Shown one piece after another: positions 1 through 46,191 of a DNA stretch of 64,000 nt. Numbering within the stretch: the stretch's first letter is position 1; every line of letters begins with the position of its first letter. Source of the stretch: Halichondria panicea. Its lineage: Eukaryota > Porifera > Demospongiae > Suberitida > Halichondriidae. The position numbers and the translations under genes were made by a program. The notes below the pieces were generated by a model. It had not been told where the DNA came from. It saw nothing but the letters and a program-made list of their open reading frames with translations, and did no database searches. The DNA is taken from the NCBI RefSeq assembly GCF_963675165.1, contig NC_087392.1, forward strand, positions 1,503,001-1,567,000, given 5' to 3'.

Positions 1-1164
1 TTATCGACAATGTGCACTACACCATTGCGAGCTTGGCAGGCATTTGGTTGAGAAATCCGCACTCCATTCACGTAGAATACCTAATTGAAAACAGGAAAGC
101 AATAATTATAGTTAACAGTACACATTGACAACCTCTATACTAGAAAATACAATACCTTGACAGTACTATTTCTAGTTTTTCCAATATGAAGAGACACGTT
201 GGAGGCTAGTGTTTGTATCAGCTGGCCATTGAACAATTTATTCTCTGGAATACTTCCTTCTCCGATATGTGCAGAAATAATTGTCTCTCTGGTAATTATA
301 TTGAACAGCAGAGCTCGTGTAATATCGTTCAGACCTGCAAATGCTTCGTTGGAAAGAGCAAACACTGTAATTGGGTCAGTTTCTGACTCAAATCTCTCAA
401 CAATGTCTGGCAGTTCATTAGTTTCTGTCAGGAATTCATTTAGAGCCAGCTCGTTCAAACAATCCATAACGTTTTCCCTCAGCACTAAGCAGGAGAACAA
501 AAAATGTAATTATGATTATAGTAATTTTCAAGTCACTTACTGACAGGGCATCCCTCAGTTCTCAAGGAAATGCGATTCCTATATCTCCTAATGAAATCAA
601 AACTCTCTCCAGCTGCCACAGCCGCTGACTCCATGGATTCACCTTGAGCACATCCGTCACAGCAATCAATAGTGTTATCGGTGAAGTTGACCATCGTACC
701 ATTGCATTGATTAGTGACAAAACAGTCAGTACTGTATTTATAGGGAATCAGTGATAAAAAAAATAGTATGTGCAAAATAATTAGTGTGTCATAAAACTTA
801 CAAAGAAAAGCCTCTAAAGATTCGAAACTCTTGATATGTGTAGCCTCGTGTTTGCTGCATGTAGATCTTGGACACTCGACACACATTCGGTCTGCAGAGT
901 TAAAGAATGGATACATGCATGTACCATATACAGCCGGCTAATTTTGTACACTAACCCTTCGATTCCATCTGTTTCACCTAGCTCAGCCTCAGTTTGCCCA
1001 ATAAGAGTTGCCTCTCCACATCTTTTAGCTATAGAGTGTCGTCTGGGGGTGCAGCTGTCCCCAAGCTGTGCTCCGTTGGGAAGACCAGTTGGTCTATATC
1101 CTTGTGCATTAGCGACACCAGCAAACAGTGCAATGCAAAGCACCACAAATCGTAGAGTTGCCAT
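1..1164 (-). CDS. EMI-FAS1 secreted matrix protein, copy A (3' end cut by window)
   Basis: This is the first of seven near-identical periostin/TGFBI-like genes. Exons in transcript order are 956-1164, 802-891, 541-731, 156-484 and 1-80 (cut by the window edge). Exon 1 encodes a 20-residue signal peptide beginning MATLRFVVLC. The exon 1/2 junction creates GPNVC, the hallmark start of an EMI domain, and exon 3 carries the CCDG pair that matches the CCPG of known EMI domains. Exon 4 is the first FAS1 domain and the last exon starts the second. I chose the ATG at 1164 because the signal peptide starts there and a TATA box lies 60 bp upstream. The known family consists of extracellular adhesion proteins; the role here is inferred. 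Confidence 0.85.
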
Positions 1165-1223
1165 TGTTGAGTAATTTTGACTGCGACTACTTTGCAAAAT
1201 GATTGCATTGGCTCTGCCAGCTA

Positions 1224-1231
1224 CTTTTATA
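1224..1231 (-). promoter_or_regulatory. TATA box of copy A
   Basis: TATAAAAG on the minus strand, 60 bp upstream of the copy A start codon. The same octamer recurs at nearly the same place in all seven intact copies, followed by a conserved AGCCAATGCAATCATT-like stretch where transcription would start. Confidence 0.7.
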
Positions 1232-3916: not shown

Positions 3917-5623
3917 TCAATCAGTAGGAATGCTGTCAGGATCGGGGGTGACCTCAGGTTCGATAACAAGCTCCATTATAGCTGTGATGCCTGGACAAAT
4001 TTGCCCCAACTGTTCATCGGTAAAGGTCTGGATGATCTCGGGGATGGCATGGATCACACCGTTACGAGCAGGGAGGTCAGTACCGTCAAGAGGGATAATA
4101 CGGTTTGGAATGATATTAGCATTGGTAATGCTCACTAATTCTTCGGCTAAGTTAACTTTAAGACGGGAGATGAATGTTGGGACATAATTACGCTCAGAAA
4201 GAGTGGTTGTGAACTCAGCAGGATAGGAGATATGAAGGAGAACAAAAGTAGAAAGATATCCTTTATTGGCATCTTTAAGTAGACAATCAACAAAACCTGG
4301 ATCAAAGGCATCGTTTGTAGGGGCAAAAACAGTTTGAGATTTCTGCGGAACATCTAAGAGTTCAGCAATATCAGCTTTTTCTGCCAGTTGCTGAAAAATG
4401 CTGAAACGAGAAGACTGCTGAGTTAAAACGTCCTTAATGGTGTCTGAGGAAAAGGGCAGAAAATTATCGACAATGTGCACTACACCATTGCGAGCTTGGC
4501 AGGCATTTGGTTGAGAAATCCGCACTCCATTCACATAGAATACCTAATTGAAAAGAGGAAAGCAATAATTATAGTTAACAGTACACATTGACAACCTCTA
4601 TACTAGAAAATACAATACCTTGACAGTACTATTTCTAGTTTTTCCAATATGAAGAGACACGTTGGAGGCTAGTGTTTGTATCAGCTGGCCATTGAACAAT
4701 TTATTCTCTGGAATACTTCCTTCTCCGATATGTGCAGAAATAATTGTCTCTCTGGTAATTATATTGAACAGCAGAGCTCGTGTAATATCGTTCAGACCTT
4801 CAAATGCTTCGTTGGAAAGAGCAAACACTGTGATTGGGTCAGTTTCTGACTCAAATCTCTCAACAATGTCTGGCAGTTCATTAGTTTCTGTCAGGAATTC
4901 ATTTAGAGCCAGCTCGTTCAAACAATCCATAACGTTTTCCCTCAGCACTAAGCAGGAGAACAAAAAATGTAATTATGATTATAGTAATTTTCAAGTCACT
5001 TACTGACAGGGCATCCCTCAGTTCTCAAGGAAATGTGATTCCTATATCTCCTAATGAAATCAAAACTCTCTCCAGCTGCCACAGCCGCTGACTCCATGGA
5101 TTCACCTTGAGCAAATCCATCACAGCAATCAATAGTGTTATTGGTGAAGTTGGCCATCGTACCATTGCATTGATTAGTGACAAAACAGTCAGTACTGTAT
5201 TTATAGGGAATCAGTGATAAAAAATAGTATGTGCAAAATAATTAGCGTCATAAAACTTACAAAGAAAAGCCTCTAAAGATTCGAAACTCTTGATATGTGT
5301 AGCCTCGTGTTTGCTGCATGTACATCTTGGACACTCGACACACATTCGGTCTGCAGAGTTAAAGAATGGATACATGCGTGTACCATATAAAGCCGGCTAA
5401 TTTTGTACACTAACCCTTCGATTCCATCTGTTTCACCTAGCTCAGTCTCAGTTTGCCCAATAAGAGTTGCCTCTCCACATCTTTTAGCTATAGAGTGTCG
5501 TCTGGGGGTGCAGCTGTCACCAAGCTGTGCTCCGTTGGGAAGACCAGTTGGTCTATATCCTTGTGCATTAGCGACACCAGCAAACAGTGCAATGCAGAGC
5601 ACCACAAATCGTAGAGTTGCCAT
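3917..5623 (-). CDS. EMI-FAS1 secreted matrix protein, copy B
   Basis: A complete five-exon model: 5415-5623, 5261-5350, 5004-5194, 4619-4947 and 3917-4543. The lengths sum to 1446 nt (481 residues) with the frame kept at each junction. Residues 1-20 are a signal peptide. About 70-162 form an EMI-like module, with GPNVC at 70-74, C103, C109 and C123-C124, closed by GCPV near 160. FAS1 domain 1 is about 164-300 and domain 2 about 305-460, with SQTVFAPTNDAFDP and NGVIHAIPEII as its conserved strands. N-glycosylation sequons lie at N115 and N118. The tail ends at SIPTD, shorter than in copies E-H. No membrane anchor or GPI signal is visible, so it is probably secreted. Family members bind matrix and integrins; the partner here is unknown. 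Confidence 0.88.
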
Positions 5624-8716: not shown

Positions 8717-10424
8717 TCAATCAGTAGGAATGCTGTCAGGATCGGGGGTGACCTCAGGTTCGATAACAAGCTCCATTATAGCTGTGATGCCTGGACAAAT
8801 TTGCCCCAACTGTTCATCGGTAAAGGTCTGGATGATCTCGGGGATGGCATGGATCACACCGTTACGAGCAGGGATGTCAGTACCGTCAAGAGAGATAATA
8901 CGGTTGGGAATGATATTAGCGTTGGTAATCCTCACTACTTCTTCGGCTAAGTTAACTTTAAGACGGGAGATGAATGTTGGGACATAACTACGCTCAGAAA
9001 GAGTGGTTGTGAACTCAGCAGGATAGGAGATATGAAGGAGAACAAAAGTAGAAAGATATCCTTTATTGGCATCTTTAAGTAGACAATCAACAAAACCTGG
9101 ATCAAAGGCATCGTTTGTAGGGGCAAAAACAGTTTGAGATTTCTGCGGAACATCTAAGAGTTCAGCAATATCAGCTTTTTCTGCCAGTTGCTGAAAAATG
9201 CTGAAACGAGAAGACTGCTGAGTTAAAACGTCCTTAATGGTGTCTGAGGAAAAGGGCAGAAAATTATCGATAATGTGCACTACACCATTGCGAGCTTGGC
9301 AGGCATTTGGTTGAGAAATCCGCACTCCATTCACGAAGAATACCTAATTGAAAACAGGAAAGCAATAATTATAGTTAACAGTACACATTGACAACCTCTA
9401 TACTAGAAAATACAATACCTTGACAGTACTATTTCTAGTTTTTCCAATATGAAGAGACACGTTGGAGGCTAGTGTTTGTATCAGCTGGCCATTGAACAAT
9501 TTATTCTCTGGAATACTTCCTTCTCCGATATGTGCAGAAATAATTGTCTCTCTGGTAATTATATTGAACAGCAGAGCTCGTGTAATATCGTTCAGACCTG
9601 CAAATGCTTTGTTGGAAAGAGCAAACACTGTAATTGGGTCAGTTTCTGACTCAAATCTCTCAACAATGTCTGGCAGTTCATTAGTTTCTGTCAGGAATTC
9701 ATTTAGAGCCAGCTCGTTCAAACAATCCATAACGTTTTCCCTCAGCACTAAGCAGGAGAACAAAAAATGTATTTATGATTATAGTAATTTTCAAGTCACT
9801 TACTGACAGGGCATCCCTCAGTTCTCAAGGAAATGCGATTCCTATATCTCCTAATGAAATCAAAACTCTCTCCAGCTGCCACAGCCGCTGACTCCATGGA
9901 TTCACCTTGAGCAAATCCGTCACAGCAATCAATAGTGTTGTTGGTGAAGTTGACCATCGTACCATTGCATTGATTAGTGACAAAACAGTCAGTACTGTAT
10001 TTATAGGGAATCAGTGATAAAAAAATAGTATGTGCAAAATAATTAGTGTCATAAAACTTACAAAGAAAAGCCTCTAAAGATGCGAAACTCTTGATATGTG
10101 TAGCCTCGTGTTTGCTGCATGTACATCTTGGACACTCGACACACATTCGGTCTGCAGAGTTAAAGAATGGATACATGCATGTGCCATACACAGCCGGCTA
10201 ATTTTGTACACTAACCCTTCGATTCCATCTGTTTCACCTAGCTCAGTCTCAGTTTGCCCAATAAGAGTTGCCTCTCCACATCTTTTAGCTATAGAGTGTC
10301 GTCTGGGGGTGCAGCTGTCACCAAGCTGTGCTCCGTTTGGAAGACCAGTTGGTCTATATCCTTGTGCATTAGCGACACCAGCAAACAGTGCAATGCAGAG
10401 CACCACAAATCGTAGAGTTGCCAT
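8717..10424 (-). CDS. EMI-FAS1 secreted matrix protein, copy C
   Basis: A complete five-exon gene: 10216-10424, 10062-10151, 9804-9994, 9419-9747 and 8717-9343. It spans 1446 nt, 481 residues, the same layout as copy B and differing at only a few residues. Signal peptide, EMI-like module and two FAS1 domains are all intact. The second FAS1 exon starts VFFVNGV rather than VFYVNGV. Like copies A and B, the EMI-like exon 2 is 90 nt and lacks the two extra cysteines seen in copies E-H. The very low divergence from B points to recent duplication or gene conversion. Confidence 0.88.
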
Positions 10425-10490: not shown

Positions 10491-10589
10491 CACTAGCAAT
10501 GTACACATACATACACATTGCCTGTTTTGGCAGAACACCTTATTAAGAAATGGACACTTGCTAATGAAGTTTGTCATGGTTGCATTTAC

Positions 10590-11010: not shown

Positions 11011-11011
11011 C

Positions 11012-12639: not shown

Positions 12640-12976
12640 CTGGTTCTAGCGACCCACAGCCTCAGGAGGGACCACGATCCCGCCTCTGGATCCGCCAGGA
12701 ATGCCGTCAGGATCGGGGGTGGCCTCAGGTTCGACAACAATCGGAGGTGTTGTTGGCTCCATGGTAGCTGTGATGCCTGGACAAAATCGTTCCAACTGTC
12801 TATCGGTAAAGGGTGGATGATCTCAGAGATGGCATGGATCACACCGTTACGAGCAGGGATGTCAGTATCGTCAAGAGGGATATTATCATTGGTGTTTGGC
12901 TAAATTAACTTTAAGAGACCAGTAGGTGAATGTTGGGACATAATTACGCTCAGAAAGAGTGGCTGTGAACTCAGCA
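12640..12976 (-). pseudogene. Truncated EMI-FAS1 copy D (3' scrap of last exon)
   Basis: About 335 bp match the 3' half of the last exon of the other copies: the C-terminal tail, the conserved strand encoding NGVIHAI and the stretch back to the AEFT motif. Then the match breaks off and spacer sequence follows at once. Small indels disrupt the frame. It has no upstream exons and no promoter. It most resembles copy H in its glycine-rich tail codons. It looks like the product of an unequal exchange that joined the inside of one gene to the spacer of another unit. Confidence 0.8.
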
Positions 12977-13990
12977 GAAAATTTCCATCGCTGATAGTCA
13001 GATAGATAACTCTCATACTCAAGCACAGAAGACCTTCTACAATCACAGCCTGCATGTGGCCTGAATGTTTACAAGAATTGTTCCAATCCCTAAAGCTGGC
13101 GATAACTGGTAACTCAGTACAGGCCTGTTCATGCACCACTGCCTATACTGAGCAACCTTCTTGAAAGCACATCACTGATTTGCTACTACAACATCTTCAT
13201 GTCCGTCACCTCTTTCGAAACTCCAATGGGGCTTCACAACACAGAATTCCACGACCAGTGCTGGTTTGATTTCTTTCACACACTATATACTGGAGGCTGG
13301 TCATGAGGTATGTTCTGTCTTTTTCGACTTAAGCAATAATGCTGGAGGTTACGTAATTCACGAGCCTAGCGAGTGCATTACTCAACCTTATTGCATCATC
13401 CGAGTGCACCAGCATTAAAACACGTTGGCTAGCTAAGTGTGTTATAAAGGTTTTATGCTAATATCCCAAAGCTAAAAAGCCTGATTTGATTACTACCTAG
13501 CTTCAAGCTGCACTTTTGAGATGGCTGGATGACTTAAATGATGATTGTGCAATAAAAACTTATTGCACACTTAACTGCACTGTTAGTGACTGGATTTACA
13601 TGATCTCCAGCCAATCAGCTTGTCTAAAATGACTGCACTTTAACCACACTTTGTAGTTTGTGCTTTAAGTTGTTAATGTACACTTAAGTGAGATGTAGCC
13701 GAGAGTTCATCCGAGTGCACTGGCCAGCATTAAAACACGTGATTTTGGCTAGGTGTGTTCTAAAGGATTTAGTGCTGTCACGTGATCTCTAGCCTCGTGT
13801 ATATGCAGCCAGCTGCCATTTGTACAGCTTGACCTGTTAAACCAGTTTTATAGTTGGCTACATTTCATTCTTGTTTGTATTGCTATACACATCTCCAGAC
13901 AATCAGCTGTGCTTTAAATCATTTAATTTGTTTATAGTAATTGTATCACAACCACAACCAATTGAAGTAAAATATACAGAAATCATGCAG
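12977..13990. repeat. Spacer before copy E
   Basis: Spacer of the E-H type. It starts abruptly after truncated copy D, includes a LINE reverse transcriptase remnant at 13056-13290 and the AT-rich block that precedes every 3' gene end. No gene is visible. Confidence 0.7.
13056..13290 (+). mobile_element. LINE reverse transcriptase remnant, unit D/E
   Basis: Decayed copy of the 2930-3215 fragment: the nucleotide match is clear (AAGAATTGTTCCAATCCCTA), but the frame is broken soon after the PIPKAGD motif. Confidence 0.55.
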
Positions 13991-14009
13991 CAGTTCAATG
14001 TTCTGGTTC

Positions 14010-15723
14010 TTAGACACCCACAGACTCAGGAGGGACCACGACTCCACCAGGAGGAATACCGTCAGGATCGGGGGTGACCTCAGGTTCGACAATAATCGGA
14101 GGTGTTGTTGGCTCCATTGTAGCTGTGATGCCTGGACAAAATTGCTCCAACTGTCTATCAGTAAAGGGCTGAATAATGTTGGGGATGGCATGGATCACAC
14201 CGTTACGAGCAGGGATGTCAGTATCGTCAATAAGGATATTATCGTTGGTGATGCTCACTCCTTCATCCGTTGAGGTAACTTTAAGAGACCAGTAGGTGAA
14301 TGTTGGGACATACTTACGCTCAGAAAGAGTGGTTGTGAACTCAGCAGGATAGGAGATATGAATGAGAACAAAAGTAGAAAGATATCTTTCATTGCCATCC
14401 TCAAGTAGACAATCAACAAAATCTGGATCAAAGGCATCGTTTGTAGGGGCAAAAACAGTTCGAGACTTCTGCGGAACATCTAATAGTTCAGCAATATCAG
14501 CTTCTTCTGCCAGTTGCTGGAAAGTGCTGAAACGAGAAGACTGCTGAGTTAAAACATCATTGATGGTGGCTGAGGAGAAGGGCAGAACATCATCGACAAT
14601 GTGCACTACACCATTGCGAGCTTGGCAGGCATTTGGTTGAGAAATCCGCACTCCATTCACATAGAATACCTAATTTAAAACAGAAAAGCAATATAGTTAA
14701 CAGTACACAACCTCTACTAGAAACACAATACCTTGACAGTCCTATTTCCAGTTTTTCCAATATGGAGAGACACGTTGGAGGCTAGTGTTTGTATCAGCTG
14801 ACCATTAAACAATCTATTCTCTGGAACACTTCCTTCTCCAATATGTGCAGAAATTGTTGTCTCTCTGGAAATTTCACTGAACAGCAGAGCTCGTGTAATA
14901 TCGTCCAGACCTGCGAATGCTTCATTGGAAAGACCAAACACTGTAATTGGGTCAGTTCCTGACTCAAATCTCTCAACAATGTCTGGCAGTAGATCAGTTT
15001 CTGTCAGGAATTCATTTAGAGCCAGCTCGTTCAAACAATCCATAACGTTTTCCCTCAGCACTAAGAAGGACAAAAATTAATTATGAGCATAGAGAGATGG
15101 TAGTTTTCAAGTCACTTACTGACAGGGCATCCCTCAGTTCTCAGGGAATTGCGATTCTTATATCTCCTAAAGAAACCAAAACTTTCTCCAGCTGCCCCAG
15201 CCTCTGGCTCCATGGGTTCACCTTGAGCAAATCCGTCACAGCAATCAGTAGAATTCTTGGTGAAGTTGACCATCGTACCATTGCATTGATTAGTGGCATA
15301 ACAGTCAGTACTGTATAGGATTTATAAATTTTGCAAAATAAGTAGTGTCATAAAACCTACAAACAACGACGACCTCCAAATCTGCTTCTGTAGCAAAACT
15401 CTTGATACGTGTAGCTTCGTGTTTGCTGCATGTACATCTTGGACACTCGACACACATTCGGTCTGCAGAGTTAAAGAATGGATACATGTACCATTTACAG
15501 CAAATTTGTTCACTAACCCTTCGATTCCATCTGTTTCACCTAGCTCAGTCTCAGTTCGCCCAAGAAGAGTTGCCTCTCCACATCTTCTAGGTTGTCCTCT
15601 GGGGGTGCAGCTGTCCCCAAGCTGTGCTCCCTCGGGAAGACCGGTTGGTCTATAATATCCATGTGCATTAGCGACACCAGCAAACAGTGCAATGCAAAGC
15701 ACCACAAATCGTAGAGTTGCCAT
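14010..15723 (-). CDS. EMI-FAS1 secreted matrix protein, copy E
   Basis: A complete five-exon gene: 15518-15723, 15361-15462, 15120-15310, 14732-15060 and 14010-14669. The sum is 1488 nt, 495 residues, in frame throughout. It has a signal peptide, an EMI-like module and two FAS1 domains. Exon 2 is 12 nt longer than in copies A-C and encodes EFCYRSRFGGRRC, adding two cysteines as in canonical EMI domains. The C-terminal tail is proline- and glycine-rich and ends PPGGVVVPPESVGV, longer than in A-C. Exon 2 uses a GTAGG donor. No anchor is visible. It is followed upstream by the first VSP relic. Confidence 0.88.
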
Positions 15724-16540: not shown

Positions 16541-16800
16541 ACTACTACAAGAAAAACCGTCTAATTAGATTGACCTTGTTATATATACAGCCGTTTTACT
16601 AAATGCTGTGAGACAGGAATAGCATATAGGGGTGGTGTTGCTCATAGTTAACAACATTTTCGGTTTCAACTGTAAACATCATTAATAAAACAGGGTGTAA
16701 CCATGCGACAAGCTAAGTTCCAATTTGGGAAATAACGTGATAAAAATGTTGCAAATCATAATAAAGCCATGAGAACGATTCACCCACACCCTACAAACAC

Positions 16801-19800: not shown

Positions 19801-20215
19801 TCCTTGCAACTAGCTGAGATCTGCTCCATGTTGCAGCTCAACAGCATGCCTCCTTCTCACAAGGCAGGCTAGGAAAAGAGGCCTGGGATAATTATGATCG
19901 AGGCTACAAAACATTGCACAAGGAGCTGACTCAGCAACAGCAATAGTTGACCTATGCACTTTATTAGTTCTAGCTCCTGACATTTTACATAATACAGTTC
20001 ACACGTGTACTGACTGTATATATATATGGCAGACCATATTTGCAATGGGTCAATCAACACCAAGTAATGCAAACCTGGTGACCCTGATCGCAATGGTTGC
20101 AGTATCCACTCTAAACTTGGTCGCGTCTACCAGTAGCACATACACAATGGTGAGGACGGTGGACAAAGTGACTATATATGATCAGATCAAACACTTCAAA
20201 CAATTGACAATTAGT
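16801..20215 (-). pseudogene. Voltage-sensing phosphatase relic 1
   Basis: Matches exons 13 to 4 of the intact gene at 42018-46191. Exon 12 (17202-17275), most of exon 10 (about 17498-17588), exon 9 (about 17922-18147), exon 8 with its HCKGGKG loop (about 18381-18468), exon 6 (about 19331-19523) and exon 4 (about 20075-20215) are recognisable. Exon 7 and exon 5 are absent, exon 13 and exon 11 carry internal deletions, and exon 10 has an 8-bp loss that shifts the frame. Exons 1-3 are missing: homology stops in intron 3 and spacer DNA follows. It cannot encode a working enzyme. The stop codon position matches that of the intact gene. Confidence 0.88.
19566..20030. other. Unique insert replacing exon 5 in VSP relic 1
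   Basis: This 465-bp stretch sits where exon 5 should be and is not found in the other three VSP loci. It begins with a short GC-rich palindrome-like stretch (CGCCTCGCCGGAGGCG). A plus-strand frame of 71 codons lies at 19657-19872, but nothing in it is recognisable. Confidence 0.5.
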
Positions 20216-30119: not shown

Positions 30120-30754
30120 TAGCAATGTACACATGCACATTGCATGCACTTGTGTTGGCAACACCTTATTAAGAAATGGAGTTTGTCATGGTTGCAATAC
30201 ACAGCAGGAATATGTCAAGTAAAGCAGGAACTTGTGGTAAATGACTTAAAGGGCCTCTGATCATAAGTTGTCTGATGGGTAAAAGGACTCCTTCTTAACA
30301 CCCACGTAATGGCTTTGAGATAATGAGGTAGCAAACACCCACTCAATACAGCTGTCTGGGTCGAGGCATTATCATTGAACCCATACACCTACATGTACAG
30401 TATGCAGTCACATGTACAGTCTCAGTAGTCTCATGAACCAGCCGCCCTTTTTTGGTCTTCCCAAAAGAAGGGCGGATGATTTATGAGACTAGGTTACATG
30501 CACAGCAAAGATACTACTACAAGAAGAACTGCCTGACTGTTATTTACATGGTTATTTCACTAAATGCTGTGAGACAGGCGTAGTTGCTCATAGCTAAATC
30601 AGGTTTTAGGTTTCAACATATCAAACTGTAAACATTTCATTAATGAAAAACAGGGTGTAACCATGCGACAAGCCAAGTTCCAATTAGGTGATAAAAGAGA
30701 TAGAGACGCAGAAATCATAATAAGCCATTAGAACGATCCACTCACACCAAACAC
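30120..30754. repeat. Spacer between copy G and VSP relic 3
   Basis: Same unit DNA as 23630-24265, with the hairpin at 30426-30491. No gene is visible. Confidence 0.7.
30426..30491. mobile_element. 66-bp hairpin MITE, unit G
   Basis: Paralogue of the hairpin at 23937, with a few changes in both arms (AACCAGCC on the left, GGATGATTTATG on the right). These changes break pairing at some positions, so this copy has decayed most. Confidence 0.7.
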
Positions 30755-33588
30755 TTAGTCTACTAATAAGGCACTCCCAGTCGGTCTATTTTCGATCACG
30801 AAGTAGGTACCACTCAAGTCACTTGATCTCTCAAACGCCATCTCCACGACGAACCCGACCGGGTAGTATCTGTGCAGTTTGGACTTATGGAGATTGTCCA
30901 GTTCTTCTCGCTCCAGGAAGAACCTGTGAGAACAAACATGCATTATAGCATACATAACGATAGTGTGCACAAGGTCCATGGTAAGGATCATTACAATATA
31001 CCTGTTATTTTCAATGAATGTGGTATTAAACCAAAAGTAGAAATGACACTTATCACTGTCAGTGGGAATGGAACGTTGTATGGAGAGACATAATTATGAC
31101 ATCTCTTTGAGCAATAGCTACTTACGGTAGTGGTGTAAAACTTGAATTTAACATCATCAATTAAGACGACAGGTTTAGTTGGCGTGAATACTACTTCAAT
31201 ACTGCTTGTATTTTGGTCGAAATTAGTCCGTGTCTGCAATGAATGAAGTCATGGTAATCCTATGGGTAGACTAATCAACATAAATAAATGTTGGTGAAAA
31301 TTAAAGCTGCGCATGTTAAACTTGCATATGTAATACTCACTACGTTCGCATTGGGAGAGTCTAGAGAGCACTCAAAGACGACATCCTCACCAAGGTACAC
31401 TTCAAACCTCCAGTCTGAACCATCTCCTCTGCCAAGCCCTAGGAATGCATGCACATCAAAGGGAATACTTACAAGCAGCATAATAATGAGAACACCATGA
31501 CAACATGACAACAATGAGATAAATGTGCATATATGTAGACCTATAACTATAGCTGTAGGGCATCACATGTTGTCTTTCTGTTGCTTCTTCCCCACATGTT
31601 CACCACAAACCCATGAACATTAATTGCGAAAGAGGAAAGTTCAATCACTTTGTGGGAAACACCCACACAATATTGTATCAACATCAATTACTATTGTGTA
31701 TGGCTACTGACCTGACATCATTGCTCACCTGATATCCCATGCAGTGTCAAGTTAGTCATTCTCAATGCTACTGGCGGTGGTAAGTTTCTGTTCATGACAG
31801 CGATCAGTTGCTGGTAATAGCGAACGTAGTGACTCTGACTGGGTGTGTCCACACCTTGTGTCTTCTTCCCTTGGGACTTGTCCGTGCGACGAAGAGTGAA
31901 ATAATCCAGGCTGTCCCTCGCCTATTCAAAGAGACCAGACTTCACCAACCAGGCAGAGATCATGGTTCCGGTACGGCCTGTCAGATGAGAAGAAAAATGA
32001 AATGCTACACCCCCCTCACACACACTGAGGCCGTAGGCAATAGGGGGATTTGGGGCTGAAATCTCCCAGTTTCTGTAAACTATCCTACCGTATTGGTTAT
32101 GTGTTAAAAGTCGGCGCACCTTGCCAACCTCAGAGCCCCCCTACTTGTCCGAACACACACACACGAGCCTCGCCCTCCATGCACGCACAATACACAACAC
32201 ACACTCACACAAGGCTCACCTTTCCCTCTCTTGCAGTGCACCACAATGACATTCTTCTGGCAGGCTTCTATCCAAATGAACGCATCTTCACAGAAGTCAA
32301 CTAAATCTCTATACATAAGAATAAGAAACTGATGACATTACAGCTACAATAGCTATTGTAACTGTAATGCCTAGTCCTCATTTGTCATTGTCATTACTTT
32401 GTCATTGTCATTATTTTGTCATACAATATTTATTAGTCGCTACATCATCATACGTTACTTTGACAGATTGCAGGATTCTACCCGGGATTCGCCATGCATC
32501 AATGCACTACAGTTTCTTATAAACAATGCAAGCTAATAGGGTGTTGGGAGGTGATATAGGTTGAATCAATCTGCACCCTGGATATAATATCAAGGGGCGT
32601 ATGAAGAGAATAGGGCTGCGAGCAAAAACTGCATTTCTAGCTATCTGCACAATAACGTTATGTATTTTACACAAAATCAGAAATCTGATATTACTGGTAA
32701 ATCCCATCGCCCACTTACTTCCCAATTGCCCTCTTCTCTCACACACCCTTGGTAATGATAGGTATATAACCACATCCTGGGTGATTGATTACCCAGGCAT
32801 GTACTGTATTTACAACAGTAGTGCCAATTCTTTGATGTCCGACCACAATGAGCAATAACTCACAATAATTATTACCAGGGCTTTTCAAGTCATGAGAACA
32901 CTAAATTGCAGTCTTTGACCGAACCAACAAATGCATCCACACCCTAACCATTATCTGTAAGCATAAAATTATCTTGGAACCAACATCAAACATTCATAAT
33001 TTGATTCTAATCAGCAGCAGCTGGCACTCACAGCAGAGGTTATAGACTCTGTAATGACCAAAGTGCATCTTGTCCAGGAATCTTCCCACCTCTTGAATGG
33101 AGTTGCGATAAAGGAAGCGACTGCCACTGGCTGGGAAAGACATGGCAATCACACGGTTCGTCACCTACGTCAGGTCAAGGTTAAAGTCCTCATCTATATA
33201 ATGCCTCTTGTTCTATGATACTTGGAGGCACGTATAAACAAGTTATACACGTTGAGGCTGCACAAAGCATCAAAATAGCAACAGTGGTTTTGCGTACCTT
33301 TGATCTGACGTAGGTGATAATGCTTCTTTGTTCATCCATGACTCTGGACCAAACAACAGACGTATGCAACGCACCAGAGCAGTGTACCGCAGACCACTGC
33401 AGGGTGACAAACAGGCGCCAGTAACTAACCACATGTCAGGGCCGTAGCCACCAACTTTAGAGTGGTCAGGTTATGAAGTAGCGTGCCGAAATTTTTGGGG
33501 CCACGTTACGCCCCTTGTCTACTGACTATACTGCTACTAGATTCTGTTTAGCTTTAAAGCTTAGCCCTAACACAAAATAATGTTACAG

Positions 33589-33757
33589 AACACAACATCT
33601 TGATTCTCATCATGATGGAGAAACAGTAAAGTTTTCTTTGGCAAGACTACAGAACTGGTTTGCAAATGATGATCGCTTCGGGAACAACAAATTTTTAGCT
33701 CAGCTGGATGGTGAGCTTGGTCTGGAAGACTTGGAAGGGATTCTCTCTCAACATTGA
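33589..33757 (+). pseudogene. Coding-like terminal exon inside the transposon
   Basis: A plus-strand frame after the acceptor-like TGTTACAG reads on through GETVKFSLARLQNWFANDD and LAQLDGELGLEDLEGILSQH to a TGA at 33755-33757. The sharp amino-acid character suggests real coding DNA: either the C-terminus of a lost transposase or a captured host exon. I do not recognise it. Confidence 0.4.
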
Positions 33758-35322
33758 CAGCCATAGTAATGATAGCATGCAATACTTATAGATTAAATTA
33801 TAGTCTTGCATGTTTTGCACTGCAGAAGGCACATTTTGTCCATTATGTATTTACTGTAGTGACGACCATTGCCTATTTACCTCGGAAAAAGTGGTTGACT
33901 GGTGGCCACATGACCAGCTAAAAGGATTGTGAATCTCATTAACTTGTGCATGAATATCATTCAAGACTGTGTACTTTGATAGTGGATTTGGTTTGGCGTG
34001 TATCTTTCAAAAAATACACTTGACGTTTCTAAGATCAGGATTGTTGATTGCTGGGCTTATACTGATGTGAAATAGCTTTTCAACCAGTTTCAACCACCAC
34101 TTAGATTTTGAGATATTATTGTTTTTAGTGTAATTCTGTTTTAGAGTATTCAATAAGTATTCTGTGCCTGCATTCAGGATAGGATCACTGCAAACATCTG
34201 AGCCTTGGTTTTTACAACAAATCTAATCTCTACTTGTAAAACTCTAGCTACTAGCCAGCAACAAATTCACTGAGTTTTATGCTCTAAACTTGTCTCTTTA
34301 TGGCGCTTACTTGCCACCAGTTGAATGTCGTCATTGGAATGCATTTTTAACGACTTCTTTGTCTTTCTTGCCTTCAATCAAGAAACAGCAGCCACGTGAG
34401 CTTAACCCGTGTCGTAGAGGAGGTACGACATAGGTTGACCTTTTGCTAATGAGTTACTCCTGTATTGGATTCCTGCAGCATGACAGGATGCCACGCCCAC
34501 ATTTACTAGAGGAGGTGTGGCCTCGCGTCATAATAAGTTTCACGGAGGAATTGTGAGTGTACGGAGAAAGAAGAGAATATACGGAAGCATAACACCAAAA
34601 CTTGCTCTCCTAGCTAGCTAAAAGGCTACAAACGATCATAGTACTCCACAGTAGTTATAAATAATGCCTAACTATATCCTGTGACATAAGAAAATGAATA
34701 GCATAGTCATAGTTGAAGAAATGAGCTATAAACTTACAGTGTAAGAGTTTGTTGCGCTTTCTATGGCTCCTGTGTTAATGTAATACTTATAGTAGATACT
34801 AAGATTGATAAACTAGTAGAAAATGCCTCTTGGAGAGACTCCAGAAGAGATAAACACAAAGAACAGTAACACAGCCAAAAATCCACGGGGCGTGTCAGGT
34901 CCGTTACATGTCCGTTACAGGACGTTTACCACATCCTGATACGGGACCGTTGGGTAGACACTACTAAACAGGCCGTTCACATACAGCCTGTAAACAGCCC
35001 GTACAAACGGCCTGTATCATACTGTTCTCCATGCACAATTTAATAAGCTAGTATCATGCTTCAAAAGGTCACAATTCAAAGACAAAGAAGACAAGAACAA
35101 GATATATATTTAATTTCTGTTCAGCTACATTATGTCTCTCATTATCATGTCCGTGTCTTCACATCCCCACGGTGGCACTGCAGATAAAAACAACCAGTTG
35201 AACTGTACGTTAACGCCACATAAGTATACTAACTTACTGTATTTATATTCGTCTTGTTTTTGTGCACAAAGATAGACTCTGAGGAGAAGAGGCTGGAAAT
35301 TATACAAAAAATACACCACTGC

Positions 35323-35950
35323 TTACCGGCGTACTATAAAGTCAGTGAACAGCTTGAAGGGCCGTTCTTCATCTCCGAGATAGCTTGCCAGCTGTACACT
35401 AATAATACTTATTCACATAGATTAAACTAAGTTGCTTACCAGGCAATTGTTGCATTCTCTTTATCATTCGTCTAAAAACTTCAATCTATGAGGCATATAA
35501 TGCATCACCAAAGACATACAAAATAATGGCACTTACCTAACACATCCAGACTCCAACTCAGCATGCCAATAAAGAAATCTATTAAATAACATGTGTAACG
35601 AGTGCTAAAGATGAAAACAATAAACAAACCTTGAGTTTTGCAACATCTGAAGAAGAGTTAGAAGATTAAAAGAAGAACACACCACTGTGAATAATCTTAC
35701 CGGCGTACTATGAAGTCAGTCAACAGCTTACAGTGTGCTGTACACATTACAAGGGCTCTTTTTCATCTCGAAGATATCTCGCAACTGTACACCAATACGC
35801 TATTCACACAGATTACATAGTTGCTGAATTTTCTTACCAGGAAACTGTTGCTTTATCTTTAGTTCATTCTTCTGACAACATCTAGTGTCTACAGAAGCAA
35901 TAACGTATCACAAAACACAATAGAACAGTGGCACTTACGTAATTAGTCCA
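35323..35950. repeat. Diverged direct duplication of about 250 bp
   Basis: Two diverged blocks start with CTTACCGGCGTACTAT at about 35323 and 35697. Both continue with matching segments (GAAGTCAGT..ACAGCTT, ATTCACA.AGATTA, GTGGCACTTAC) in the same order. The repeated CTTAC words would be GTAAG donors on the minus strand, hinting at a former multi-exon gene. No protein is readable. Confidence 0.55.
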
Positions 35951-36482
35951 GACTTCAACTCGGCAGCATTATATAAAGTCAATTTGATTGCGTGTTTAAT
36001 ATGTGAATGCTAGTGAAAGAGAATAACAAACCTGGGAGCATTCTTCAACACCTCTTTTTCAAAAGTGAAAAAACTTCAGATGGGAGCCTACGATGAGGAG
36101 GATTATTTCAAAAAGGAAGCAAAACGAAACGTTTACCTTGTAAATTGGCCAGTGACTGTGTTCCAGCTTCAAAAATCCATAACAACGTGCAAACCTGAAT
36201 TTATAAACATACAGTAGAGGTGAAATTTACAGACCTTTGCTGCCAACTACACAAGAGGTCAAATTCACTACAGATTTGAAATAGCTGTGGAACTAGAGGA
36301 ACACAAACTGCTATGAGAAAGTTCAATAAAAATAATATAACTGTATAATAACATGCTGCTACAGCTTCACCTTTTTCTGTTCACAGGTGACTAATAGTGT
36401 ATAGTCCTCTTCAAGTTGTCTTTTTGGACCAGCAGCTCCTCTTGTGACAAGCAGCAGGATTTTTTCTCAGAGCTCTGTCTGT

Positions 36483-37003
36483 CCATAGATTGAAGAGTTA
36501 GAGGGATAGGAAACGGAGTGGTGCACGTGATGATTTTACATTGAATCTGCAGTGGAGCCTCGAAAATTATCAGCGCTACGCCCTATGAACGAGGCTATTA
36601 ACCACATTTTTGCCGGGTAACTCCCAAAGCTGTGTTTCCTCGAGACATCATCTCTTTCAGCAACAACTTATAACACGCCTAGTCCATGAGCCACGTATAG
36701 TACTTGCTAATGACTGACCACACCCAGTAAAAAGAGACTTTCCAATAAAGTTATATGTTCCCAAGGCTGTTTTAGAGCTATTGGAACATGTAACGTGTAA
36801 GCGTGCTGGTTATGACTACTACAATAGGTATAGACCTTGAAATATAAGTGAGTTGCACGGACTAAGCACAGTTACTTGTAGTTTATTATGCACTGAGTGT
36901 AGAAATAGATATTGTTGTGATGGCCTCGATTAAACCGCAGCGTAGCGCGGATGTTACTCGAGATACCAACCGTTTCCTATCCCTCTAACTCTTCAATCTA
37001 TGG
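36483..37003. mobile_element. 521-bp MITE with 34-bp TIRs
   Basis: Perfect 34-bp inverted ends (starting CCATAGATTGAAGAGTTAGA) at 36483-36516 and 36970-37003, flanked by a 5-bp duplication TCTGT at 36478-36482 and 37004-37008. No coding capacity. It is inserted into the element at 34870-37294 and so is younger than it. Confidence 0.85.
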
Positions 37004-37869
37004 TCTGTCTTATTCTCTTTTTGTAGTCAGGTGACGTCATCCTGCCCCAAGCTAGCGCATGCGCATAAGCTACAGCTGCAACAGCCTGTATACAGGACAT
37101 GGGTGCTACGCCCTGATACAGGCCCGTATCCACGGGCTGTAAACAGGACGTGGGCTAACGTCCTGTTTACAGCCCGAGAATGGCCTGTATACAGGACGTG
37201 GGTGGGCTACATCCTGTATACAGGCCGTTCACGGCCCCGTAACGGCCCGTTTTCAACCAACGGCCTGAAACGGACCCGTGGATTTTTGGCTGTGATAAAT
37301 AGCGCTGACGGTGCATAAAAATACTTGCTGAGTCAACACAAATATCATGTGGGCGTGACATCCTGTCATGCTGCAGGAATGCAATACGGGAGTAACTCAT
37401 TAGCAAAAGGTCAACCTATGTCGTACCTCCTCTGGGTGGCTACGGCCCTGTCATGTACGGAGGAGACAACAAGGTCAATAGTTCTAATTAGTATAATTAT
37501 TGGGAGTAGATGTACATACTCACAACTCCCTTCCACACCCAAACCTAATGGCTGCAGCTGCAAAGTATACTTAGCTAAGAAAACAGCATGTAAGGTAGTA
37601 ACAAAACTTTCACTAAAAATACATTGTTGCATATACATTTGACATAATACAGTTCACACGTGTACTGACTGTATATGGCAGACCATAATTGTTTGCACTA
37701 GCTACAATGGGTCAACCAACACAAAGTAACGCAAACCTGGTGACCCTGATCGCAATGGTTGCAGTTTCCACTCTGAACTTGGTCGCGTCTACCAGTAGCA
37801 CATACACCATGGTGAGGACAGTGGTCAAGGTGACTATATATGATCAGATCAAACACTTCAAACCAACGA

Positions 37870-39554
37870 CAATTAATGGTTTCATGTCCACAGAGGGCAT
37901 TCAAGAATATAAGAAAGGCTCCTCAAGACACATCCGCTTATGTGAAGGCACAGGTGCCGTAGCTTCCCTGCATGGTTCAAAAAGTTGATGACACGATTAC
38001 CGCTCAATTTATTCGTGACTGTACATGTGTAAGACTAGGGAAATACAATGAAAAAAGACATAGACCGATACTAGTCAAGCTCTCACGTACGTGTGAGGTA
38101 TCTTAGCTGGGGGAAGGAACTTGAGAGCGTCTCCTGGTTTCTCTATCAAACCCGACAAGACCAAACTAAAAAAGCAAAAGAAGCAATTGAAACGATATTT
38201 CTGAGAAAAAGTATGGAGGCTAATTTAGTATGGGATGGAAAGAAAATTATGTGGATCTGTCATAATTCGGTTTACAAACCCAACACTGTGCATCATGCAC
38301 TCCAGTTGTTGCACGGAATGCTTAACAACTTATGTGGATCTGTATGTGAAGGCATGCATTGGTGTCCTGTATAGGCTCTTCAATTCCCACACTTAGGGAA
38401 CCTAGCTGTCTCTGGATTGGCTATCTGACAGCAGGAGTGCTGCATGAAGTGCATGAATATACTCCCTGACAACCATACACTGAAAGCCAGCTTAAACAGC
38501 CAAAATTTCTATCACTGATAGTCAGATAGATAACCCTCATACTCCATACTCAAGCACAGAAGACCTTCTCTACAATCACATGGGGCCTGGATGTTTGCAA
38601 GAATTGTTCCAATCCCTAAAGCTGGCGATAACTGGTAACTCAGTACAGGCCTGTTCATGCACCACTGCCTATACTGAGCAACCTTCTTGAAAGCACATCA
38701 CTGATTTGCTACTACAATATCTTCATGTCCATCACCTCTTTCGGAACTCCAATGGGGCTTCACAGCACAGAATTCCACGACCAGTGCTTTGATTTCTTTC
38801 ACACACTATATACTGGAGGCTGGTCATGAGGTATGTTCTGTCTTTTTCGACTTAAGCAATAATGCCGGAGGTTACGTAATGCACGAGCCTAGCAAGTGCA
38901 TTACTCAACCTTACTGCATCATTCGAGTGCACCAGCATTAAAACACGTTGGCTAGCTAAGTGTGTTATAAAGGTTTTATGCTAATATCATGCACAAAGCT
39001 AAAAACCCTGATTTGATTACTACCTAGCTTCAAGCTGCACTTTTGAGATGGCTGGATGACTTGAATGATGATTTGTGCAATAACAACCTATTGTACATTT
39101 AACCGCACTGTCAGTGACTGGATTTAATCAATGTCATTGGCAATATTGCCACCGTGATATGCTGGTAAAAATAAGCAACATTATGAGTCGCACATGATCA
39201 ATGACTGCACTTTAAATAACTTAAAACCACATGCACTTATGTGTGCTTTAAGTATGCACACTTAAGTGAGATAATTATTGTAGCCAAGAGTTCATCCAAC
39301 TGCACCGGCATTATATAAAACACGTGTGATTTTGGCTAGATGTGTTCTAAAGGATTTAGTGCTGTCACTAAATCTCTAGCCTCGTGTATATGCAGCCAGC
39401 TGCCATTTGTACAGCTTGACCTTGTTAAACCAGTTTTATACCTGGATACACTTTATTCTGAATTTGTTTGTATTGCTATTTTTCATTTCATGAAAAAAGT
39501 AATGAAATATACAGAAATCCTGCAGCAGTTATTGTTAGTTCAATGTTCTGGTTC
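37870..39554. repeat. Spacer before copy H
   Basis: Unit spacer of the E-H type, fused to VSP exon 4 on the left, with a LINE reverse transcriptase remnant at 38582-38822. No gene is visible. Confidence 0.7.
38582..38822 (+). mobile_element. LINE reverse transcriptase remnant, unit H
   Basis: Plus-strand copy of the shared fragment (CAAGAATTGTTCCAATCCCT), frame broken after PIPKAGD. Confidence 0.55.
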
Positions 39555-41314
39555 TTAGCGACCCACAGCCTCAGGTACCACGATTCCGCCTCCGGATCCG
39601 CCAGGAATGCCGTCAGGATCGGGGGTGGCCTCAGGTTCAACAACAATCGGAGGTGTTGTTGGCTCCATGGTAGCTGTGATGCCTGGACAAAATCGCTCTA
39701 ACTGTCTATCGGTAAAGGGCTGAATAATGTCGGGGATGGCATGGATCACACCGTTACGAGCAGAGATGTCAGTATCGTCAATAAGGATATTATCGTTGGT
39801 GATGCTTACTCCTTCATCGGTTGAGGTAACTTTAAGAGACCAGTAGGTGAATGTTGGGACATACTTACGCTCAGAAAGAGTGGTTGTGAACTCAGCAGGA
39901 TAGGAGATATGAATAAGAACAAAAGTAGAAAGATATCTTTCATTGCCATCCTCAAGTAGACAATCAACAAAATCTGGATCAAAGGCATCGTTTGTAGGGG
40001 TAAAAACAGTTCGAGATTTCTGCGGAACATCTAAGAATTCAGCAATCCCAGCTTCTTCTGCCAGTTGCTGGAAAGTGCTGAAACGAGAAGACTGTTCGGT
40101 CAAAATGTCGTTGATGGTGGCTGAGGCGAAGGGTAGAACATCATCGACAATGTGCAGTACACCATTGCGAGCTTGGCAGGCATTTGGTTGAGAAATCTGC
40201 ACTCCATTCACGAAGAATACCTATTGAACAGGAAAGCAATATATAGTTATCAGTACACAACCTCTACTAGAAAATACAATACCTTGACGGTCCTACTTCC
40301 AGTTTTTCCAATATGGAGAGACACATTAGAGGCTAGTGTTTGTATCAGCTGACCATTGAACAATCTATTCTCTGGAACACGTCCTTCTCCAATATGTGCA
40401 GAAATTGTTGTCTCTCTGGCAATATTACTGAACAGCAGAGCTCGTGTAATATCGTCCAGACCTGCAAATGCTTCATTGGAAAGAGCAAACACTGTAATTG
40501 GGTCAGTTTCTAATGACTCAAATCTCTCAACAATGTCTGGTAGTTGATTAGTTTCTGTTAGGAATTCATTTAGAGCCAGCTCGTTCAAACAATCCATAAT
40601 GTTTTCCCTCAGCACTAAGAAGGACAAAAATTAAATTATGAGTATAGAGAGATGGTAGTTTTCAAGTAACTTACTGACAGGGCATCCCTCAGTTCTCAGG
40701 GAATTGCGATTCTTAAAGAAACTAAAACTCTCTCCAGCTGCCCCAGCCTCTGGCTCCATGGGTTCACCTTGAGCAAATCCGTCACAGCAATCAATAGAGT
40801 TCTTGGTGAAGTTAACCATCGTACCATTGCATTGATTAGTGCTATAACAGTCAGTACTGTATATATAGGGAAATAAAATTATAAATTTTGCAAAATAAGT
40901 AGTTATAAAACTTACAAACAACGACGACGACCTCCAAATCTGTTTCTGTAGCAAAACTCTTGATATGTGTAGCTTCGTGTTTGCTGCATGTACAACTTGG
41001 ACACTCGACACACATTCGGTCTGCAGAGTTGAAGAATGGACATAATTATGTATACATATATACCATGCATGCATGCATGTATAGCTAATTGTGTACACTA
41101 ACCCTTCGATTCCATCTGTTTCGCTTAGCTCAGTCTCAGTTTGCCCAAGAAGAGTTGCCTCTCTACATCTTGAAGGTTGTCCTCTAGGGGTGCAGCTGTC
41201 CCCAAGCTGTGCTCCCTCGGGAAGACCAGTTGGTCTATATCTGTTATATCTGTGTGCATTAGCGACACCAGCAAACAGTGCAATGCAAAGCACCACAAAT
41301 CGTAGAGTTGTCAT
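39555..41314 (-). CDS. EMI-FAS1 secreted matrix protein, copy H
   Basis: A complete five-exon gene: 41103-41314, 40916-41020, 40675-40856, 40283-40614 and 39555-40220. The sum is 1497 nt, 498 residues, in frame. Signal peptide MTTLRFVVLC..., EMI-like module with both extra cysteines, FAS1 domains 1 and 2. Exon 4 has one extra codon (SLETDP). The tail is the most glycine-rich of the set (GGSGGGIVVPEAVGR). It sits next to the only complete VSP gene, so this pair probably preserves the pre-duplication arrangement. Confidence 0.87.
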
Positions 41315-41372: not shown

Positions 41373-41380
41373 CTTTTATA
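41373..41380 (-). promoter_or_regulatory. TATA box of copy H
   Basis: TATAAAAG on the minus strand 59 bp upstream of the copy H start codon. Confidence 0.68.
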
Positions 41381-41389
41381 CACTAGCAA

Positions 41390-42017: not shown

Positions 42018-45000
42018 TTAGTCTACTGATAAGGCACTCCCAGTCGGTCTATTTTCGATCACAGAGTAGGTACCACTCAAGTCACTTGATCTCTCAAACG
42101 CCATCTCCACAGCGAACCCGACCGGGTAGTACCTGTGCAGTTTGGACTTATGGAGATTGTCTAATTCTTCTCGCTCCAGGAAGAACCTGTAAGAATAGTT
42201 GCAGGTGAAAAACCTTTTCGCAAAACATTATAGTAATACGATACATAACTATAGTGTGCACAACGTCCATGGTAAGGATCTATTACAATACCTGTTATTT
42301 TCAATGAACGTGGTATGAAACCAAAAGTAGAAATGACACTTATCACTGTCAGTGGGAATGGAACGCTGTATGGAGGGACATAATCATGACAATCTCTTTG
42401 AGGATAGATCAATAGCTACTTACGTTGGTGGTGTAAAACTTGAATTTGACATCATCAATTAAGATAACAGGTTTAGTTGGCGTGAATACCACTTCAATAC
42501 TGCTTGTATTTTGGTCGAAATTAATCCGTGTCTGCAATGAATGAAGTCATGGTAATCCTATGGGTAGACTAATCAACATTAATTTTAATGTTGGTGAGCT
42601 AAAGCTGCACATGTTCAAATTGCAATGTAATACTCACTACGTTCGCATTGGGAGAGTCTAGAGAGCACTCAAAGACGATATCCTCACCAAGGTACACTTC
42701 AAACCTCCAGTCTGAACCATCTCCTCTGCCAAGCCCTAGGAATGTATGCACATCAAAGGGAATACTTACAAAATAGCATAATTGTAATGAGAACACCATG
42801 ACAACATGACAACAATGATCAGCGGGTGGGAAACACCCACACAATATTGTATCAACATCAATTACTATTGTGTACGGCTACTGACCTGACATCATTGCTC
42901 ACCTGATATCCCATGCAGTGTCAAGTTAGTCATTCTCAATGCTACTGGTGGTGGTAAGTTTCTGTTCATGACAGCGATCAGTTGCTGGTAATAGCAAACG
43001 TAGCGACTCTGACTGGGTGTGTCCACACCTTGTGTCTTCTTCCCTCTGGACTTGTCTGTGCGCCGAAGCGTGAAATAATCCAGGCTATCCCTCGCCTCTT
43101 CAAAGAGACCAGACCTCACCAACCAGGCAGAGATCATGGTTCCGGTACGACCTGTCAGATGAGAAGAAAATCAATTGCTACATACCTCCTTTCACACACT
43201 GAGTAGGCAATAGGGGGCTTTGGGGCTGAAGTATCCCAGTTTCTTTACCTACTGTATTGGCTATGTATTAAAAGGCAGCGCACCTTGCCAACCTCAGAGC
43301 CCCCCCTACTTGTCCGAACACACACACGAGCCTCACCCTCCACACACACACATACAAGCCTCACCTTTCCCTCCCTTGCAGTGCACCACAATGACATTCT
43401 TCTGGCTAGCTTCTATCCAAGTGAACGCATCTTCACAGAAGTCAACTAAATCCCTATACATAAGAATAAGAAACTGATGACATTACAGTCTACAATAGCT
43501 ATTGTAACTATAATACCTAGTCCTCATTTGTCATTGTCATTTGTCATTGTACATAATTATTATTAGTGGCTACATCATCATACGTGAACTTTGGAACGTT
43601 GTGGTCGTCTATGAGAATCCGCTGCACTTGATTGTGGAAATAACTCGTATCATATTCTCTCTCGGCTGGAAAAAAATTTTACCATCAGATATTCATTAGT
43701 ATAATTATTAGAGCAACGCTCCTCGGGCTCGAGTTGTATTAGCAGTAGAGCACGAGGGCATGACGTAATAACCTACTTATTGCTGATTGTGTAATAATTT
43801 CAAGGATCATTACCAAATGGACCAATCAGATTGCAGGATTCTACCCGGGATTCGCCATGCATCAATGCACTACAGTTTCTTATAAGCAATGCAAGCTAAT
43901 AGGGTGTTGGGGGGTGATTTAGGTTGAATCAATCTGCACCCTGGGTAATATCAAGGGCATATAAAGAGAAGAGGGGCATGCAACTCACTATTAGTCCAAC
44001 GTGCGAGCAAAAACTGCATTCAATCTATCTGCACATGTACTTTACACAAAATCAGAAATCTGTGCTTTTCCAGTAAATCCCACCACCCACTTACAGTTTT
44101 TTCCCTCTTCTCTCATACACCCTTGATAAATATTGACCGCATCCTGGGTGATTGACTACCCAGGCATGTACAACAGTAGTGCCAATTCTTGATATCTGGC
44201 TACAATGAGCAATAAGTCACTATATACCACACCCTAACCATTATCTTTAAGCATAAATTATCTTGGAACACAACGTTTAAAAAGTTTTCAAACATTCATA
44301 ATTATCTGTAAGCATATCTTGGAACACAACATCAAATATTCATAATTTGATACTAATCAGCAGCAGCTGGCACTCACAGCAGAGGTTATAGACTCTGTAA
44401 TGACCAAAGTGCATCTTGTCCAGGAATCTTCCCACCTCTTGAATGGAGTTACGATAAAGGGAGCGACTGCCACTGGCTGGGAAAGACATGGCAATCACAC
44501 GGTTTGTCACATACGTCAAGTCAAGGTTAAAATCCTCATCTACATAACGCCTCTTGTTCTGTGATACCTGGAGGCACGTACAAACAAGTTATACACGTTG
44601 AGGCTCACTCTTTCTGCACAAAGCATAAAAACAGCAACAGTGGTTTTGTGTACCTTTGATCTGACGTAGGTGATGATGCTTCTTTGTTCATCCATGACTC
44701 TGGACCAAAACAACAGACGTATACAACGCGCCAGAGCAATGTACCGCAGACCACTGCAGGGAGACAAAAAGGCGCCAGTAACTACCACATGTACAGAGGA
44801 GCTAGACAACAAGGTCAATAATTACTTATTAATTTGGGAGTAGATGTACATTACTCACAACTCCCTTCCACACCCAAACCTAAAATGGCTGCAGCTGCAA
44901 AGTATATACTTAGCTAAGAAAACAGCATGTAAGGTAGTAACAACTTTCACTAAGAATACATTGTTGCATACATTTGACATAATACAGTTCACACGTGTAC

Positions 45001-46191
45001 TGACTGTACAACAATGAACAGACCATATTTGCACTATATAGCTACAATGGGTCACCACACAAAGTAACGCAAACCTGATGACCCTGATGGCAATGGTTGC
45101 AGTAGCCACTCTGAACTTGGTTGCGTCTACCAGTAGCACATACACAATGGTGAGGACGGTGGACAAAGTGACTATGATCAGATCAAACACTTCAAACCAA
45201 CGACGAAAGTACACTCTCCTGCAGTCAGTGTGTGAGACAATAGTGTGTGCAAAGGCACGTGGTGTGACTGACTGTACGCATACGTAGCTATGGGCTATAT
45301 GGTTTTGCAGGCATACAAGCCATACAAACTAAACACACTGTAGAGTAGAAGGATTTCAACTTATCCTTGTTGTTATATATGATGCATGTGATTGCATGTC
45401 AGATACTCACCCCTGACCGACAACCCTGAGCCCCACCTCCACGGAGAAGATAGTGACAAAGATGAGCTCCAGCAGCTGCAACACCTCGTCCACAGCAAAA
45501 GGGACGGTGGTATCGTACAGTACCAGCTGAGCAGTGTTCAGACCAATGTATGCAACCAGCACCAAAAGACTCAGAGATCTGCAGATGGTGTTATTAGCAG
45601 TACAGCTTAATTATTTATACTGTAGCTAGCTACTAGCATAATGTGTCCTATAAGAGAAGTTGGCATTTGTATGGTTTTATGATACCGGCAAAAATCCTCA
45701 CTTGGTGATATTTGACTCCACACCATGCAATATACGCAGTCTTGCTCTCCTGTGGAAAATATGTAGTCAAGACAACCGCTATTATATAGGGTGACTTACG
45801 CCAGCATGTTATCTGATGCACAGTGCTTGACATAGTGAGGAGTGTTCTTGGAAGAGTCAATAAACTTATCATTCACTGTCTTCCGTCGGGTCCTCCCTTT
45901 GGGCAGCCTCATACCTCGTCGCCATTTATTAGCTCTCCGACGAAACTTCCCACTCTCAACTTGTTCAGGAGCACTGTGTATATCACCACAAGGTGAAGCT
46001 AGCTCAATATCGTGGTCTGCTTCCAGTAGAGGCTCCTTTAGCTGGTTAGAATGGTCCCCTCTTTCAAGATCAAGTGACTGTCCTCTTTTTGCTTTGCCAT
46101 GGAAGAAACTAGTCGTCACTGTAGTGGGTGAAATTGGCTCTTCTTCAGTAGAAGACAAAGACTTCGAACGAAGACGTGAGTTGGAGGCCAT
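42018..46191 (-). CDS. TPTE: Voltage-sensing phosphatase (TPTE/Ci-VSP type), complete
   Basis: Thirteen exons: 45800-46191, 45702-45749, 45411-45578, 45075-45218, 44654-44753, 44378-44567, 43584-43665, 43365-43453, 42903-43151, 42638-42735, 42424-42531, 42292-42365, 42018-42186. Total 1911 nt, 636 residues. Residues 1-145 are a basic cytosolic N-terminus. S1-S3 span about 150-230 and S4 about 240-265, with arginines at 247, 250, 254, 260 and 263. The linker has QNKRRY (287-292). The phosphatase domain follows: WPD-type loop DDHNVP at 367-372, catalytic HCKGGKGRTG with C400, TI-like loop [14 protein letters not shown]2 domain with [13 protein letters not shown] ends the protein. The glycine after CK matches Ci-VSP rather than PTEN (alanine). 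Known members turn depolarisation into phosphoinositide dephosphorylation at the plasma membrane; activity here is inferred. Confidence 0.93.

Follow-up and report, generated by a model that had tools for sequence, protein, structure and literature searches.

We identified a tandem array of seven full-length FAS1 (periostin/TGFBI-like) genes in the sponge Halichondria panicea, which very probably grew from a single tandem duplication reaching from exon 4 of a neighboring voltage-sensing phosphatase (VSP) gene, through a FAS1 gene, into the spacer 3′ of that gene, with unequal exchange and gene conversion following. The analyzed window comprises 64,000 nucleotides of contig NC_087392.1 (positions 1,503,001 to 1,567,000) and is part of a 5.8-Mb contig in a genome of 131.5 Mb in 39 contigs. 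Three VSP relics lie upstream of FAS1 genes D, E and F, and an intact VSP gene, H, closes the array.

We compared the window, together with 20 kb to its left and 10 kb to its right, to itself. The comparison revealed a head-to-tail array spanning approximately −500 to 46 kb, in which the FAS1 genes A–G all lie on the minus strand (Table 1). The units align over kilobases at ~80–96% identity, which rules out a chance resemblance, and no VSP match was seen in units A–C. At least 15 FAS1 matches were found genome-wide, 15 of 15 within this cluster (20 candidates scored; the counts are lower bounds).

Table 1 Features of the FAS1–VSP array, in window coordinates.
Feature	Position	Strand	Description
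FAS1 gene A	1..1164, exon 5 extends to about -507, left of window	-	468 aa, five exons; open model, four GT..AG introns, TATAAAAG at -67
FAS1 gene B	3917..5623	-	481 aa; open exon model, GT..AG introns
FAS1 gene C	8717..10424	-	481 aa; open exon model, GT..AG introns
5′-truncated FAS1 piece	12641..12977	-	partial match, 3′ part of exon 5 only; exons 1-4 absent
FAS1 gene D	14010..15723	-	495 aa; open exon model
VSP relic r1	16795..20201	-	lacks exons 1-3, 5, 7; begins within exon 4; exons 4, 9, 10 and 13 carry indels, exons 6 and 9 stops
r1-junction spacer	20202..20666	-	homologous to spacers of units A-C
FAS1 gene E	21815..23556	-	497 aa; open exon model
VSP relic r2	24260..26523	-	lacks exons 1-3, 7-9; begins within exon 4; exon 5 frameshifted; stops in exon 6 (two) and exon 11 (one)
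r2-junction spacer	26524..26995	-	self-comparison and junction alignment
FAS1 gene F	28284..30050	-	496 aa; open exon model
VSP relic r3	30749..37870	-	lacks exons 1-3, 7; begins within exon 4; frameshifted in exons 4 and 5; stops in exon 6 (two) and exon 9 (one); altered acceptors at exons 6 and 12; interrupted by ~4 kb insertion
Dispersed-repeat insertion, intron 4 of r3	33437..37451	.	gap relative to r2 and H; repeats elsewhere in genome
r3-junction spacer	37871..38247	-	self-comparison and junction alignment
FAS1 gene G	39555..41314	-	498 aa; exons 41314-41103, 41020-40916, 40856-40675, 40614-40283, 40220-39555; periostin/TGFBI matches
Intact VSP gene H	42018..46191	-	13 exons, 635 aa, motif CKGGKGRTG
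VSP exon 4	45075..45218	-	duplication breakpoint 14-15 nt inside 5′ end (about 45204)

Units B and C are close (95.7% over 3 kb, dS of 0.024), as might be expected if an assembler had stacked alleles or repeats. However, the aligned units differ by ~4–20%, the relics and spacers differ in structure, and the contig is 5.8 Mb long; judged from the sequence, an assembly artefact is extremely unlikely.

Several features surround or punctuate the array. A ~211-bp unit lies upstream of the FAS1 genes in units A–C (5787–6421, also about 1306–1524 and 10581–11014). It occurs about once at A, three times at B and twice at C, and one portion matches sequence upstream of the D–G FAS1 genes. On the left, outside the window, a diverged FAS1 gene, its tail rich in threonine and proline, adjoins the array at about −738 to −2821. 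It contains one open frame from −2075 to −2821, in which 72 of 216 aligned columns are identical to exon 5 of gene G. The right-hand neighbor is a Furry (Fry) gene at about 49.7–51.1 kb on the minus strand, with Fry_C Pfam matches in two of eight open frames scanned.

The FAS1 genes share a common architecture of five exons encoding 468–498 residues. All seven are open, GT..AG borders flank 28 of 28 introns, and a TATA box, TATAAAAG, is placed at −66 to −68 in every one. These models bear out the seven-gene tandem array proposed in the first-pass annotation, along with its view that the matrix genes had stayed intact; its eight unit letters are taken here as seven genes plus the truncated piece at 12977–12641. 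The annotation also described repeated fusion to phosphatase fragments. Such a phosphatase–FAS1 fusion is ruled out: a TATA box, start, splice sites and stop of its own were found for every FAS1 gene, and the two kinds of sequence are merely adjacent.

The FAS1 part of gene G matches periostin (E of 3.3e-35, 5yjg) and TGFBI (E of 1.2e-23, 5nv6), and PF02469 was found in two stretches (105.8 bits against a Pfam cut-off of 22), which places the protein in the FAS1 (fasciclin) family. Periostin and TGFBI have four FAS1 domains, with an EMI domain upstream of them. The sponge protein resembles them in its FAS1 part and in carrying a GCPV-like motif immediately ahead of its first FAS1 domain, whereas it differs in having two FAS1 stretches and in the EMI domain being undetected by Pfam. 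The "EMI" label of the first-pass annotation found no backing from Pfam: PF07546 gave no match in gene G, in two N-terminal parts or in the genome, and gave none in 14 control genomes either. Gene G showed a weak, non-significant alignment at the GPNVC start of periostin, and a profile built from four of the seven FAS1 proteins aligned only the FAS1 portion of periostin (one alignment). By eye, the N-terminus looks like a signal peptide, and we infer that the seven genes are expressed and act as matrix or adhesion proteins. In exon 2 of A–C (891–802, 5350–5261 and 10151–10062), which is in frame, two cysteines of the N-terminal cysteine-rich part that are kept in D–G are missing. Among the papers listed in literature searches, titles and abstract openings showed no FAS1 array of this sort for fasciclin/periostin, sponge and tandem, and nothing combined FAS1, EMI domain, sponge and genome; the words "EMI" and "sponge" are absent from the available portion of PMC6032426.

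VSP-H is predicted to be a voltage-sensing phosphatase from its domain content. It has an Ion_trans match, a PTEN-like phosphatase with the CKGGKGRTG motif and PTEN_C2 (Pfam), as do TPTE2 and Ci-VSP (9c49, 3awf), and its best match is TPTE2 (E of 1.5e-113). We found 33 genome matches to VSP-H, 31 in this array and two weak phosphatase matches on another contig, and H is the sole VSP found in the genome. A voltage sensor, a PTEN-like phosphatase with a CX5R site and a C2 domain occur together only in H; relics r1–r3, unlike TPTE2 and Ci-VSP, are not working members of the family. The proposal that the phosphatase is whole only in the last unit therefore holds, with a 13-exon gene set against three lesioned relics. 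A search of titles found nothing on VSP in sponges.

Next, we consider where the relics begin. Read on the minus strand, they start at 20201 (r1), 26523 (r2) and 37870 (r3), and a search of the three relic regions turned up nothing matching VSP exons 1–3. The junction aligns at one position in all three, with a few substitutions in r1, and lies 14–15 nt inside VSP exon 4 (exon 45218–45075, homology from about 45204). The spacer beside it is homologous to its counterparts in units A–C. The first-pass annotation had the relics ending after exon 4, at one breakpoint in intron 3 followed by the same spacer sequence. Breakpoint alignment upholds a single junction, at which all three relics meet a common spacer, but the relics are 5′-truncated and begin within exon 4, which rules out a breakpoint in intron 3. 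The exact spacer word ATTAATGGTTGCATGTCC is present once, at 26525, with variants at the other two relics.

The relics also share lesions. A TAG in exon 6, at codon 303, is common to all three, and exon 7 is absent from each: r1 and r3 lack the same ~240 bp, while r2 lacks exons 7–9, so that the loss of exons 8–9 through a larger deletion is private to r2. The two relics that retain exon 5, r2 and r3, carry the same 1-nt deletion in it; r1 has lost this exon. Since the junction and the exon-6 stop are common to the relics, the truncation and the first inactivation preceded amplification, and the VSP fragment probably arose in truncated form and was already dead when it was amplified.

Other lesions are private, namely an exon-9 stop and indels in exons 9, 10 and 13 of r1 (deletions in exons 10 and 13), and an exon-9 stop and a ~4 kb insertion in r3. 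The 1.8 kb part of this insertion at 33600–35400 has at least 51 other matches in the genome, 41 of them 92–100% identical (40 of 388 candidates scored), and by eye the insertion ends in inverted repeats of ~16 nt. Hitch-hiking decay of the phosphatase copies, as first proposed, thus describes the private lesions, which came later; the truncation and the exon-6 stop predate amplification.

Private lesions in every relic, together with a mild third-position excess among them, would also be expected if whole VSP–FAS1 units had been duplicated first and each extra VSP had then lost its 5′ half and decayed independently. This order of events is largely refuted by the common junction, which like the exon-6 stop recurs in three of three relics, and VSP exons 1–3 are unmatched in the relic regions searched; we regard it as quite improbable. 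That the relics function, be it as exons fused to FAS1, as regulatory leaders or as truncated phosphatases, is hardly credible. Stretches close to H are retained, such as exon 8 of r1 with its flanks (108 of 109 positions identical). Against this, stops and the absence of exon 7 affect all three relics, exon 5 is missing from r1 and exons 8–9 from r2, the FAS1 genes possess their own TATA box, start and stop, and genes A–C manage without any relic. The stops and missing exons rule out working truncated phosphatases.

We compared the divergence of the VSP copies. At noncoding sites, the distance from H is 0.085–0.087 for r1, r2 and the main part of r3, and 0.030 for the short 5′ piece of r3. 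Over all aligned sites, the first three lie 0.065–0.072 from H and 0.040–0.055 from one another; the short 5′ piece of r3 is 0.024 from r2 and 0.051 from r1. The lower divergence among relics than from H indicates that their common ancestor postdates the split from H, and the values appear consistent with one clipped copy that was amplified later. The lesions do not give the relics a clean tree, since their distributions conflict: an ATAT insertion in exon 4 is common to r1 and r3, and an exon-11 deletion to r1 and r2. Units D–G are mosaic, with 69 two-against-two sites falling in 18 runs (43.8 in shuffles, p of 5e-5). The conflicting lesions and the block-like patterns in D–G show exchange or conversion between copies. 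With head-to-tail copies, a common junction and mosaic identity, the locus has the features of a tandem array grown by unequal exchange, and the later unequal exchange suggested in the first-pass annotation is supported by the common junction, common lesions and mosaic units. A codon-model tree separates D–G from A–C with a support of 100, and groups E–F (94) and E–F–G (68).

The FAS1 reading frames carry signs of constraint. Of 133 coding indels counted between pairs of genes, 127 have lengths divisible by three; in introns 29 of 162 do. The pairwise counts are not independent. Among D–G, dN/dS is 0.46 (bootstrap 0.34–0.64), all our dN/dS ratios being pairwise counts and not codon-model omega, and these comparisons support selection maintaining the D–G frames. 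Between A–C and D–G the ratio is 0.83 (bootstrap 0.64–1.14), with neutrality within range, and introns differ by 0.17–0.22, above both dN (0.105) and dS (0.126). Variable sites among A–C are flat across codon positions (25, 23, 25; for codons 0–358, 4, 5, 10) because gene A diverges in its last part; a search for a sequence that could have donated the 3′ end of gene A gave no clear candidate. The case for frame maintenance in A–C is made by the open frames, the TATA boxes and tests of borderline outcome (p of 0.04–0.06).

We propose the following history, in which the order of events is our inference. The starting point would have been a single VSP gene with a secreted FAS1 gene immediately downstream. 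One end of a tandem duplication would have fallen 14–15 nt into VSP exon 4 and the other in the spacer beyond the 3′ end of the FAS1 gene, giving a repeat unit that combined the clipped VSP, an entire FAS1 gene including its promoter, and spacer. Without a promoter or exons 1–3, and so missing its N-terminus and the voltage sensor's first half, the clipped VSP would have been dead at birth. It may then have acquired the exon-6 stop and lost exon 7, before unequal exchange raised the unit to three copies. The relic-free FAS1 units A–C would have arisen by exchanges with another breakpoint, and copies would have been mixed by gene conversion or further exchange. Death at birth is opposed by the variable coding sites among relics, which favor third positions (12, 20, 28; p of 0.04), a lean that conversion from H could cause. 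Further points against the history are the closeness of the short 5′ piece of r3 to both H and r2, the conflicting lesions, and the A–C ratio and flat codon positions given above.

The FAS1 genes might instead form a diversifying family and not a dosage array, in which unit exchange and fast amino-acid change in one stretch of the second FAS1 domain would generate different adhesion or recognition proteins that are perhaps polymorphic among individuals. The selection for matrix gene number suggested in the first-pass annotation is a candidate explanation; what the retained frames and the D–G ratio show is selection on the coding sequence, and the A–C versus D–G ratio of 0.83 fits divergence as well as dosage. 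Whole-gene positive selection is unsupported by dN/dS. In codons 375–440, dN/dS between A–C and D–G is 1.55 (bootstrap 0.69–4.25), and in one stretch of the second FAS1 domain (alignment codons about 358–455) the comparison of genes A and B shows changes at 20 of 204 nonsynonymous sites but 2 of 63 synonymous ones (p of 0.07, one-sided, for a stretch picked post hoc). These values are only suggestive of fast amino-acid change in that stretch, and we consider a diversifying family unlikely.

The duplication that we favor has a known counterpart in the human RCCX module (STK19-C4-CYP21-TNX). The available portion of PMC8362596 describes TNXA, a truncated pseudogene carrying a 120-bp deletion and a premature stop, unequal crossover and gene conversion at the locus, and one to three segments segregating in people. 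As far as that portion allows comparison, both loci are tandem modules with a neighbor gene reduced to a truncated pseudogene, whereas the sponge locus involves other genes, has three relic-bearing units beside relic-free units, and is known from one assembly. The mechanism is an ordinary one, a tandem duplication with one end inside a neighbor gene, much as in RCCX, and the array is a well-resolved example of it. It provides a clean record of tandem array growth, in which the clipped neighbor gene marks one duplication type and orders it relative to later exchanges. Since the FAS1 matches found are all in one cluster, copy-number and sequence variation of this matrix-protein family can be easily tested.
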